Assembly (NCBI RefSeq): GCF_030398335.1
Contig: NZ_JAOAOP010000006.1
Span: 1 to 64,000, forward strand
Direction of reading: 5' to 3'
Length of the DNA: 64,000 bases
From: Aquibium sp. A9E412
GTDB taxonomy: Bacteria; Pseudomonadota; Alphaproteobacteria; Rhizobiales; Rhizobiaceae
Of the stretch, positions 24,760 to 29,176 are shown piece by piece. Below the pieces are notes generated by a model. It was not told the DNA's origin, did not search any database, and saw only the letters and a program-made list of their open reading frames with translations. Position numbers and translations under genes: made by a program. The stretch's first letter is position 1; each line of letters opens with the position of its first letter.

Positions 24760-25734
24760 ATGACCAGCCGCCACGCGCCCGTGATCATCATCGGATCGGG
24801 CCCCGCCGGCTACACCGCCGCGATCTACGCCGCCCGCGCGATGCTCGAGCCGCTGCTGATCACCGGCCTGGAACAGGGCGGCCAGCTCACCATCACCACC
24901 GACGTGGAGAACTATCCTGGTTTCGCCGACGTCATCCAGGGTCCGTGGCTGATGGAGCAGATGGCCAAGCAGGCCGAGCATGTCGGCACCGAGATCGTGC
25001 ACGACACGGTGACGGCGGTCGATCTCGAGCGGCGGCCGTTCCGGCTGACCGCCGATTCGGGCGCCGAATACACCTGCGACGCGCTGATCATCGCCACAGG
25101 CGCCAAGGCGAAGTGGCTCGGCCTGCCATCGGAGCAGACCTATATGGGCTTCGGCGTGTCGGCCTGCGCCACCTGCGACGGCTTCTTCTACCGCGGCAAG
25201 GACGTGGTGGTCGTCGGCGGCGGCAACACGGCGGTCGAGGAGGCGCTCTACCTGTCGAACCTGGCGCGCAGCGTCACGCTGATCCACCGCCGCGACACCC
25301 TGCGCGCCGAGCGCATCCTGCAGGAGCGGCTGCTCAAGAAGGACAACATCAAGGTCGTGTGGGACACGGTGGTCGAGGAGATCCTCGGCGCGCCGGGCAA
25401 GCCGCCGATGCCGGCCTCGGCCAACGGCGTGCGGGTCAAGAACGCCAAGACCGGCGCGGTCACCGACATCGCCACCGACGGCGTCTTCGTCGCCATCGGC
25501 CACGCGCCGTCGGTCGAGCTGTTCGTCGGCAAGCTGAAGCAGAAGCCGAGCGGCTATCTGTGGACGGCGCCCGATTCCACGGCGACCGACGTGCCGGGCG
25601 TGTTCGCCGCCGGGGACGTGACCGACGAGACCTATCGCCAGGCGGTCACCGCGGCGGGACTCGGCTGCATGGCCGCGCTCGAGGCGGAAAAATATCTCGC
25701 GGGACTGGAGACGGTTCGCGTGGCTGCCGAGTAG
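24760..25734 (+). CDS. trxB: Thioredoxin reductase TrxB
   Basis: A 324-residue low-molecular-weight thioredoxin-disulfide reductase that transfers electrons from NADPH through FAD to thioredoxin. FAD binding is at GSGPAGYTA (12-20), the redox pair CATC at Cys136 and Cys139, NADPH binding at GGGNTAVEEA (153-162), and the second FAD segment at VFAAGDVTDETYRQAVTAAG. Length is standard. The ATG at 24760 follows AAAGGACGAG. It is followed 20 bases later by an LsrB-type regulator gene, a pairing known in Rhizobiales that links redox control and cell-envelope regulation. Confidence 0.97.
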   Translation: MTSRHAPVIIIGSGPAGYTAAIYAARAMLEPLLITGLEQGGQLTITTDVENYPGFADVIQGPWLMEQMAKQAEHVGTEIVHDTVTAVDLERRPFRLTADSGAEYTCDALIIATGAKAKWLGLPSEQTYMGFGVSACATCDGFFYRGKDVVVVGGGNTAVEEALYLSNLARSVTLIHRRDTLRAERILQERLLKKDNIKVVWDTVVEEILGAPGKPPMPASANGVRVKNAKTGAVTDIATDGVFVAIGHAPSVELFVGKLKQKPSGYLWTAPDSTATDVPGVFAAGDVTDETYRQAVTAAGLGCMAALEAEKYLAGLETVRVAAE

Positions 25735-25754: not shown

Positions 25755-26651
25755 ATGGCATTCGACTGGGACAAGCTTCGCGTGTTTCACGCCGCGGCGG
25801 AGGCCGGCTCGTTCACCCATGCGGCCGAGTCGCTGCATCTGTCGCAGTCGGCGATCTCGCGCCAGGTGAGCGCGCTCGAGAAGGACGTCGGCGTGCCGTT
25901 GTTCCACCGCCACGCGCGCGGCCTGGTGCTGACCGAGCAGGGCGAAATGCTCTACCGCACGGCGCATGACGTGCTGATGAAGCTCGAGAGCGTCAAGATG
26001 CGGCTGCTCGAGGCCAAGGACCGGCCATCGGGCATGCTCAAGGTCAGCACCACCGTCGGGCTGGGCACCGGCTGGCTGACCGAGCGCATCCCCGAGTTCG
26101 TCGACCTCTACCCCGACATCCAGCTCGAGCTCATCCTCGCCAACGAGGAGCTCGACCTGACCATGCGCCAGGCCGACTGCGCCATCCGCATGCGCCAGCC
26201 GCAGCAGCCCGACCTGATCCAGCGCAAGCTGTTCACCGTGCACTTCCACCTCTATGCCTCGCCGGGCTACGTCAACCGGCACGGCAAGCCGACCTCGGTC
26301 GCCGATCTCGACCGCCACCGCATCGTCACCTTCGGCGAATCGGTGCCGGTGCATCTGAGCGACATGAACTGGCTGGAGACGGCCGGCCGGCCGGAAGGCA
26401 GCAAGCGGATCGCCACCCTGCAGATCAACAACATCCTGTCGATCAAGATCGCCGTGCAGCGCGGCGCCGGCATCGCCATGCTGCCGGACTACATGGTCGG
26501 CAAGGACGACGGCCTGGTGCAACTCCTGCCGGAGACCGAGGTGCCGTCCTTCGACACCTACTTCTGCTATCCCGACGCGATGAAGCACCAGGTGAAGCTG
26601 CACGTTTTCCGCGATTTCCTGCTTTCCAAGTCGCGCACCTGGACGTTTTGA
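25755..26651 (+). CDS. lsrB: LysR-type regulator, LsrB/VtlR orthologue
   Basis: A 298-residue LysR regulator. The N-terminal helix-turn-helix reads FDWDKLRVFHAAAEAGSFTH with LHLSQSAISRQVSALE. The effector domain includes MRQADCAIRMRQPQQPDLIQ and PSFDTYFCYPDAMK, phrases I recognise from LsrB of Sinorhizobium and VtlR of Brucella/Agrobacterium. Those regulators control LPS, oxidative stress and the AbcR small RNAs. Position after trxB and before an AbcR-like sRNA supports the call. Only two cysteines are present, Cys142 and Cys271. The segment near 230-245 (SIKIAVQRGAGIAMLPDY), where I recall a redox-active Cys in S. meliloti LsrB, has none. ATG at 25755 with a weak upstream ribosome site; it may be co-transcribed with trxB. 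Confidence 0.9.
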   Translation: MAFDWDKLRVFHAAAEAGSFTHAAESLHLSQSAISRQVSALEKDVGVPLFHRHARGLVLTEQGEMLYRTAHDVLMKLESVKMRLLEAKDRPSGMLKVSTTVGLGTGWLTERIPEFVDLYPDIQLELILANEELDLTMRQADCAIRMRQPQQPDLIQRKLFTVHFHLYASPGYVNRHGKPTSVADLDRHRIVTFGESVPVHLSDMNWLETAGRPEGSKRIATLQINNILSIKIAVQRGAGIAMLPDYMVGKDDGLVQLLPETEVPSFDTYFCYPDAMKHQVKLHVFRDFLLSKSRTWTF

Positions 26652-26694
26652 AGGCAATGGCCGCCCAACAGGCAGCCATGCACTTTGCGCATAG

Positions 26695-26705
26695 GTGCAA
26701 TGCAC
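26695..26705. promoter_or_regulatory. Palindrome, possible LsrB site upstream of the sRNA
   Basis: GTGCAATGCAC is a perfect palindrome (5-base arms around one A) located about 48-58 bases before the predicted start of the sRNA and just upstream of a -35-like TTGTTA at 26717-26722. That is a normal place for a LysR-type activator. In Brucella and Agrobacterium VtlR activates abcR genes directly, so this could be the operator. The match is positional; I do not claim a known consensus. Confidence 0.4.
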
Positions 26706-26751
26706 GCCACGCTGCTTGTTATTTGAGCAAAGAACGCTCATATCAGAGCCA

Positions 26752-26865
26752 TCTCGTGAGCGTGTTCTCCTCCCATTAACGCTCGCGAGTGTTCCCCTCT
26801 GGAGGTTTCGCCTTACAGGCACTTCCAATCTTGAGCCGGATCTTCGCGATCCGGCTCTTTTTTTT
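26752..26865 (+). ncRNA. abcR: AbcR-like (alpha-r15) trans-acting small RNA
   Basis: A predicted RNA of about 113 nucleotides immediately after lsrB. A first hairpin pairs 26753-26762 with 26780-26789 (ten pairs, one of them G-T). Its 17-base loop exposes TTCTCCTCCC, an anti-Shine-Dalgarno sequence. A second pyrimidine motif TGTTCCCCTC (26790-26799) lies in a likely unpaired stretch, and a strong terminator closes the RNA. This two-motif layout is that of AbcR1/AbcR2 of Rhizobiales, Hfq-dependent sRNAs that block ribosome binding on many ABC-transporter mRNAs. A promoter-like TTGTTA (26717) and TATCAG (26741) with an 18-base gap predict a start near 26752. The neighbouring LsrB/VtlR gene is the known activator in relatives. 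Only one copy is visible here. Confidence 0.75.
26833..26865 (+). terminator. Terminator of the AbcR-like sRNA
   Basis: GAGCCGGATC pairs perfectly with GATCCGGCTC around a 5-base loop (TTCGC), followed by eight T residues (26858-26865). This is the strongest intrinsic terminator in the window. No open reading frame ends near it, and the lsrB stop is about 180 bases upstream. Confidence 0.93.
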
Positions 26866-27127: not shown

Positions 27128-29176
27128 CTACGCCGCCTTGCCGGCCGCGCTCATCGCCAGGTCGGCATGACGGCCGACGAGCTCGGCCATGTGGTCGAAG
27201 CGGGCGCTGTAGCTCGCCACGCCGGCCGTCGCCGAGCGGAGCTCGACGATCAGGTCGCCGATCTCGGCCTGCGGCAGCATCGCCTCCACCACGTCCCAGC
27301 CGGGCCAGCCGGGTCGCGCGTCGAAGCCGAGGATCTGGCCGCGGCGCTGCGGCACGATCGCCGTCACCTTGGCGGTGGCGTCGGAGGGCGTGTAGATCTC
27401 GACCTTGAGCACCGGCTCCAGCAGCACCGGCGAGCATGCCGCCATTCCTTCCTTCATCGCCAGCCGCGCCGCCATCTGGAAGGCCATGTCGGAGGAATCG
27501 ACCGTGTGGTACGACCCGTCCGCCAGGTTGACGGCGATGTCGACGACCGGAAAGCCGAGCGGCCCCGCCTTGAGATAGTCGCGCACGCCGGCCTCGACGG
27601 AGGGGATGTACTGCTTCGGCACGACGCCGCCGGTGATGGTGTCGGTGAACTCGATGCCGGCGCCGCGCGGCAAAGGCTTGATGTCGAGCACCACGTCGCC
27701 GAACTGGCCGTGGCCGCCCGACTGCTTCTTGTGGCGGCCGCGCTGGGTGGTGCCCTTGCGGATCGTCTCGCGGTAGGGGACGCCGGGCGGCTGCGATTCC
27801 ACCGGGATCTGGTACTTGCCCTCGAGCCGCTCCTGCACGACGCGCAGATGCATCTCGCCGTGGCCCGACAGCACCGTCTCGCCGCTGTCCTGGTTCTGCT
27901 CGAGCGACAGCGAGGCGTCCTCCTCGAGCAGCTTGTGCAGGGCGGCCGACAGCTTGACCTCGTCCTTGCGCTCCTTCGGCCGCAGCGCGACGGCGTAGAC
28001 CGGCTGCGGCGGGGCGAGCGGCGCCAGCGCGGCGATGCCGCCCCTGGCGGTGGTCAGCGTGTCGCCGGTGGCGATGGCGTCGAGCTTGCCGAGCGCGACC
28101 GTCTCGCCGGTCTCGGCATGCGTGCGCTTGGTCTGCTCCTTGCCGAGCAGGGTGTACAGGCCGGAAACCTTGCCGCTCGCGCCGGCGGCGTGAAGCTCGG
28201 TCGCGTCGGCGACGCTGCCGGCCAGCACGCGCGCCACCGACAGCTTGCCGCCATGCGGCGTGTGGATCGTCTTGACGACCTGCAGCACCGCGTCGTCGCC
28301 GGCCTCGAGGCCGAGGCGGGCGCGCGTCGCCTCGACGTCGGGCGCGTCGTGGCGGATCGCCTTGAGCAGGCGCAGCACGCCGTGGCCCTTCTCCGCCGCG
28401 CCGATCAGCACCGGCGTGACGGAGCCGTCGCGCAGGTCGGCGGCGAGATCGTCGAACACCGCGTCGCGCGCCGGCTCGATCTCCTCCAGAAGCTGCTCCA
28501 TCAGCGCGTCGTCGTGGTCGGCCAGCGTCTCCAGCATCGAGAAGCGGGCCTCGACCTGGCGCGCCTTGTCGTCGTCCGGCGTCTCGGTGATCTCGCTCGG
28601 CGCGTGCTCGCGATAGACGTAGGCGCGCTCCAGCGCCAGGTCGATCGAGCCGACGACGATGCCGTCCTTGCGCAGCGGGATCTGGCGCAGCAGCAGCGGC
28701 GTGGCGCTCGTCGCCTGCAGCATCTTCAGCGTGTCGCGCACCGCGGCGTCGGACTTGTCGATCTTGTTGAGAAACAGGATGCGCGGCACGCCGAGCGCGT
28801 CGAGCCGGCGCATGATGAGCTGCAGGGCCGGCATCTTCTTCTCGTCGGCCTCGACCACGACCACGGCGACGTCGCTGGCGGCCAGCACGGGCTCGGCCTC
28901 GAAGGCGAACTCGACCGAGCCGGGGCAGTCGACGAAGGTGATGCTGTCGTCCATGAAGTCGGTCGTGGCGACCGTCGCCTCGGTGCTCATGGCGTGCGCG
29001 CGCGCCTCCGGCGCATGATCGCCGACCGTGCCGCCGGAGCCGACGGCGTTCTGCCGCGCGATGGCGCCGGTGCGCGCCAGGATGGCCTCGAGAAGCGTCG
29101 TCTTGCCGCTGGCGAAGGGACCGACAATGGCGACGCATTTCGGTCCCGAGCGCCTGCCTCCGGCGCGTGTGCCCAT
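27128..29176 (-). CDS. EF-G-like translational GTPase (EF-G2 type paralogue)
   Basis: A 682-residue protein with the five-domain layout of elongation factor G but divergent GTPase motifs. The P-loop is GPFASGKT (19-26) where true EF-G has a GHVDHGKT-like or AHIDAGKT-like sequence; G3 is DCPG (83-86); G4 is NKID (137-140). The switch I region is short and different (STEATVATTDF). Domain IV includes GTTQRGRHKKQSGGHGQFGD, and domain V runs to the end. Such 'EF-G-like' proteins occur besides the normal fusA in many alphaproteobacteria; their role (ribosome recycling, stress, or none in elongation) is not settled. ATG at 29176. It stands alone and is not next to rpsL/tuf genes, which also argues against being the main EF-G. 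Confidence 0.87.
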   Translation of the reverse strand: MGTRAGGRRSGPKCVAIVGPFASGKTTLLEAILARTGAIARQNAVGSGGTVGDHAPEARAHAMSTEATVATTDFMDDSITFVDCPGSVEFAFEAEPVLAASDVAVVVVEADEKKMPALQLIMRRLDALGVPRILFLNKIDKSDAAVRDTLKMLQATSATPLLLRQIPLRKDGIVVGSIDLALERAYVYREHAPSEITETPDDDKARQVEARFSMLETLADHDDALMEQLLEEIEPARDAVFDDLAADLRDGSVTPVLIGAAEKGHGVLRLLKAIRHDAPDVEATRARLGLEAGDDAVLQVVKTIHTPHGGKLSVARVLAGSVADATELHAAGASGKVSGLYTLLGKEQTKRTHAETGETVALGKLDAIATGDTLTTARGGIAALAPLAPPQPVYAVALRPKERKDEVKLSAALHKLLEEDASLSLEQNQDSGETVLSGHGEMHLRVVQERLEGKYQIPVESQPPGVPYRETIRKGTTQRGRHKKQSGGHGQFGDVVLDIKPLPRGAGIEFTDTITGGVVPKQYIPSVEAGVRDYLKAGPLGFPVVDIAVNLADGSYHTVDSSDMAFQMAARLAMKEGMAACSPVLLEPVLKVEIYTPSDATAKVTAIVPQRRGQILGFDARPGWPGWDVVEAMLPQAEIGDLIVELRSATAGVASYSARFDHMAELVGRHADLAMSAAGKAA

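Follow-up and report, generated by a model that had tools for sequence, protein, structure and literature searches.

The locus downstream of lsrB in Aquibium sp. A9E412 raises the question of whether the DNA that follows this gene encodes a small regulatory RNA of its own and, if so, to which type of the AbcR family the RNA belongs and whether it is the only one in the genome. The whole 64,000-bp stretch that was analysed is referred to here as the window. The preliminary description of this DNA had proposed an AbcR-type RNA paired with the regulator gene lsrB/vtlR, and the covariance model, motifs, synteny, promoter box and conservation all bore this proposal out.

The small RNA and its neighbouring genes

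We searched the whole 64-kb window with the Rfam covariance model RF02345 (ar15, the AbcR family), a check which the preliminary description had itself suggested, and obtained a match at 26751–26862 on the forward strand (50.3 bits against a gathering threshold of 40; E 2.7e-7 for the whole window) that spans model positions 1–112, the full length. The predicted RNA runs from 26750 to 26865 (+), ending within the U tract, and scored 124 bits with a covariance model built from the clade. The start given earlier, 26652, is the first base past the end of lsrB (26651), and the RNA itself begins at about 26750, 99 nt from the lsrB end and on the same strand. Its fold energy was −50.7 kcal/mol compared with a mean of −27.0 for shuffled sequences (z −7.3), and 0 of 200 shuffles were equally stable.

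The fold showed the three stem-loops of the ar15 layout, the last of which is an intrinsic terminator. Stem-loop 1 (26753–26789, +) has a 15-nt loop on a stem formed by 26753–26763 and 26779–26789, with one U–G pair; the hairpin with a motif in its loop was there as first described, although its stem is of 11 rather than 10 bp. Motif 1, or aSD1, CUCCUCCC (26767–26774, +; equivalent to CTCCTCCC), is located in this loop, while motif 2, or aSD2, UGUUCCCCUC (26790–26799, +; equivalent to TGTTCCCCTC), occupies the linker 3′ of stem-loop 1 and includes the aSD2 of Sinorhizobium meliloti, UUCCCCUC. Both target-binding motifs of the two-motif AbcR layout were accordingly present, as had been claimed, and neither was paired, M1/aSD1 lying within loop 1 and M2/aSD2 within the linker. 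Stem-loop 2 (26800–26827, +) was recovered in the fold and is part of the Rfam ar15 structure, and the terminator (26833–26865, +) consists of the perfect 10-bp stem (26833–26857) and the eight Ts noted before.

The lsrB/vtlR orthologue (25755–26651, +) encodes a LysR-type regulator of 298 aa with the Pfam domains HTH_1 and LysR_substrate, which showed 80–89% protein identity, or near, to the lsrB-position homologues in 80 genomes. Directly 5′ of it lies trxB, encoding thioredoxin reductase (24760–25734, +; TIGR01292, 398 bits, above the cut-off). The gene order is lrp-trxB-lsrB-abcR, which places the RNA beside lsrB/vtlR and downstream of trxB, as in the AbcR1 subtype; the same trxB-lsrB order is found in Agrobacterium tumefaciens (PMC7486931). 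The window LsrB has two cysteines, Cys142 and Cys271, which are 129 residues apart, and since this spacing equals that of C144 and C273, the conserved pair in A. tumefaciens LsrB (PMC11975290), a redox input via the window LsrB is plausible, as judged from cysteine spacing rather than from a residue alignment to the A. tumefaciens protein. Convergent with the small RNA is a gene for an EF-G-like translational GTPase (27128–29176, −; NF009379, 1007 bits), a neighbour outside the system.

Promoter, LsrB box and conservation in relatives

A perfect LsrB/VtlR box, GCATAGGTGCAAT (GCAT-N3-TG-N3-T), was detected at 26689–26701 (+), which corresponds to −61 to −49 of the predicted start at 26750; the published LsrB consensus is the same and lies at −61 to −49 of S. 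meliloti abcR1 (PMC8844928). It is followed by the sigma-70 core CTTGTT-N17-TCATAT, so that the box and core arrangement of the AbcR1 subtype is complete. The −35 element CTTGTT (26715–26720, +; alpha consensus CTTGAC) belongs to a conserved column block of 79 aligned copies, and in the −10 element TCATAT (26738–26743, +), after a 17-nt spacer, CATAT is nearly or fully invariant among the same copies. In the 64-kb window, 5 matches to the box were found in total against 4.3 expected, with only the one at 26689 correctly positioned; the other matches were rejected as real sites because the total is at chance level.

For the comparison with relatives we took, from named genomes of Nitratireductor, Chelativorans, Mesorhizobium, Aquamicrobium and Aminobacter, the 80 nearest homologues of lsrB. 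Exact motif 2 was present within 900 nt downstream of lsrB in 62 of the 80, motif 1 being usually 23–25 nt 5′ of it, and the fetched downstream flanks held 78 exact motif-2 copies in all. The LsrB box precedes 65 of these 78 copies, nearly always 98–103 nt 5′ of motif 2, with about 0.024 occurrences expected per 150 nt; several of the remaining 13 carry one-base departures from the box at the same place. Among 46 non-redundant aligned copies, motif 1 was invariant (46/46) and identical to S. meliloti aSD1, while the equal invariance of motif 2 is by construction, because the copies were selected by it. Of 79 folds, 77 left motif 1 unpaired and 68 the first six bases of motif 2. Two-sided (compensatory) changes were seen at 5 of the 6 consensus pairs in the core helix of stem 1; for the whole structure, 7 pairs had two-sided changes in the 46 relatives and 0 of 500 shuffles reached the observed covariation. 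On this evidence, the window RNA is a well-formed and complete AbcR1-type member of the known AbcR family, in the expected place and with the expected promoter.

In Mesorhizobium and Aminobacter loci such as L076–L104, the RNA was often found about 0.4–0.9 kb downstream of lsrB with its motifs intact. The Mesorhizobium loci do contain the RNA, in contrast with a 2017 survey of one strain, M. huakuii 7653R, in which AbcR1/2 were stated as not discovered (PMC5596092).

Two other readings of the locus bear on these data. An AbcR2-type copy would belong to the same RNA family and share the motifs, and Sinorhizobium AbcR2 is also near lsrB (PMC8844928); we nevertheless regard this assignment as very unlikely, as no such motif was seen in AbcR2 promoters (PMC8844928), and the window RNA has a perfect box at the AbcR1 position. 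In three tandem loci of other genomes in the family (L002, L008 and L009) the box was found at the lsrB-proximal copy and not at the distal one, and in two others (L003 and L004) the strict pattern was matched by neither copy. It is because the box sits at the AbcR1 position, and marks only the lsrB-proximal copy in the former three, that we assign the window RNA to the AbcR1 type. It is equally hard to credit, if not slightly harder, that the stretch represents no more than the 3′ untranslated end of a trxB-lsrB operon with its terminator and has no transcript of its own. The RNA does begin 99 nt past lsrB on the same strand, and its terminator could also end the lsrB mRNA, but a conserved promoter and LsrB box stand between the two, the covariance model spans the whole RNA, and the distance of about 0.4–0.9 kb in many Mesorhizobium relatives, motifs intact, indicates that the RNA is independent of the lsrB tail.

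Copy number in the genome and in the clade

The Rfam model gave one ar15 match in the 4.28-Mb genome (98.8% complete), and with the clade-built model the next-best place in the genome scored 25.3 bits against 124 bits for the window RNA. The earlier remark that one copy is visible thus holds genome-wide with both models, neither of which found a tandem AbcR pair (two adjacent ar15 copies) in this 98.8% complete genome. The sites L112 and L113 (25.3 and 21.3 bits) were considered as a second, diverged copy and rejected, as they match mainly in the terminator, are unrecognised by Rfam and have neither motif. L112 (contig C76 of the same genome, 38911–38998, −) is intergenic and scored 25 bits with the clade model; a strong terminator there is preceded by runs of ACUCCCACC and CCCCCC. 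It may represent a different C-rich small RNA or no more than a terminator, and is not ar15 by Rfam.

The clade model was also used to search 199 genomes of the family. A single match at E 1e-6 or better was found in 54 of the 68 genomes with a strong match (at least 90 bits), a tally made under strict filters by which diverged copies may be missed. The preliminary description had stated that usually two tandem copies are found, which is true for Sinorhizobium and Agrobacterium but not for this clade, where one copy is the norm; hence, nothing unusual has been lost in the window genome, and tandem AbcR pairs should not be taken for the general rule. When relatives were scanned with Rfam, tandem pairs turned up in other genera of this family (e.g., genomes G029, G009, G011 and G003). 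Another genome of the family, G014, had six ar15 matches over three contigs, C17, C20 and C42, with four of them on C20. In Mesorhizobium sp. L-8-3, three full tandem ar15 copies follow lsrB about 270–300 nt apart (L068, 3996–4677), the second and third without a strict LsrB box.

We tentatively suggest, as something that may or may not prove right, that the Nitratireductor/Chelativorans/Mesorhizobium-like branch has an AbcR network in which the LsrB redox regulator is the sole input, without the RpoH1-driven AbcR2 arm. If so, one RNA would carry the entire transporter-repression programme. The locus offers a clean natural single-copy LsrB-AbcR1 circuit that could be tested without a redundant paralogue.

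Targets, proposed mechanism and known systems

For 55 binding-protein genes, members of five Pfam families, the leader (−30 to +15) was examined for complementarity to the two motifs, and so were those of 30 short-chain dehydrogenase (SDR) genes and 30 LysR genes, the controls from the same genome. These families served as samples, and the choice of start codons depended in part on the strength of the ribosome site, which inflates every group equally. Stretches of 7 or more contiguous bases complementary to either motif were present in 27 of the 55 binding-protein leaders, compared with 3 of the 60 controls. By raw motif-1 complementarity the binding-protein genes stood apart from each of the two control sets. 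Their leaders paired with motif 1 better than those of SDR genes did (p 0.008), with 0 of 200 permuted motifs separating the two as well. When ribosome-site strength was regressed out, the motif-1 advantage over SDR genes became marginal (p = 0.10), and the binding-protein leaders had no motif-2 advantage over SDR genes; motif 2 was therefore rejected as a discriminator of transporter leaders. The preference of motif 1 for these leaders is mostly due to their strong ribosome sites.

The best predicted targets among the binding-protein genes were those in loci L153, L127 and L170. The gene ugpB, named earlier as a likely target, ranked only 33rd of the 55, with no more than 6 contiguous complementary bases and duplex energies of −12.4 (motif 1) and −12.8 kcal/mol (motif 2), and was dropped as a special target.

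The marginal preference after correction could point to a general anti-Shine-Dalgarno RNA or sponge with no liking for ABC-transporter mRNAs. We consider such a role unlikely, since ABC-transporter mRNAs abound in the regulons of S. meliloti, Agrobacterium and Brucella (PMC8844928, PMC7486931, PMC5461406), and the raw complementarity of motif 1 sets the binding-protein genes apart from both controls, no permuted motif doing as well against the SDR genes. The results agree with an anti-Shine-Dalgarno mode of repression acting on transporter genes that are strongly translated, but do not prove specificity.

We are highly confident in a single-copy, trans-acting AbcR1-type RNA that would be activated by LsrB/VtlR and would repress, with the help of Hfq, mainly the mRNAs of ABC-transporter binding proteins. 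By analogy with the characterised relatives in S. meliloti, A. tumefaciens and Brucella (PMC8844928, PMC5461406, PMC7486931), LsrB/VtlR, the product of the directly upstream gene, would bind the box at −61 to −49 and activate the sigma-70 promoter, with transcription starting near 26750 and stopping at the RNA's own terminator to give a transcript of about 116 nt. This RNA would expose two C-rich anti-Shine-Dalgarno motifs, one in the first hairpin loop, the other in the linker, and, together with Hfq (an hfq gene is present in the genome, 108 bits), could pair with the ribosome-binding sites of its targets, reducing the translation and stability of those mRNAs. Activation by LsrB is probable on the same analogy; the LsrB dependence of abcR copies varies between species and between studies, S. 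meliloti AbcR1 being LsrB-independent in one report (PMC7486931) and LsrB-dependent in another (PMC8844928).

Among known systems, S. meliloti AbcR1 (SmelC412, smrC16; RF02345 ar15) belongs to the same Rfam family as the window RNA, has identical aSD1 and aSD2, and likewise adjoins lsrB with an LsrB box at −61 to −49 (PMC8844928). However, S. meliloti has tandem AbcR1/AbcR2 and a third homologue elsewhere (PMC7143759), whereas the RNA described here is the sole copy. A. tumefaciens AbcR1 also has lsrB/vtlR directly upstream with trxB before it, and shares with the window RNA the two target-binding modules M1 and M2; it is VtlR-activated in that species (PMC7486931), in which a tandem AbcR2 is present, unlike in the window genome. 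In Brucella, a second, unlinked AbcR1 lies on chromosome II (PMC5461406), compared with the single copy here. The VtlR-activated copy of Brucella abortus, AbcR2, carries M1 CUCCCA and M2 GUUCCC, both of which are also found in the window RNA, and is likewise the single VtlR-controlled AbcR on its chromosome.
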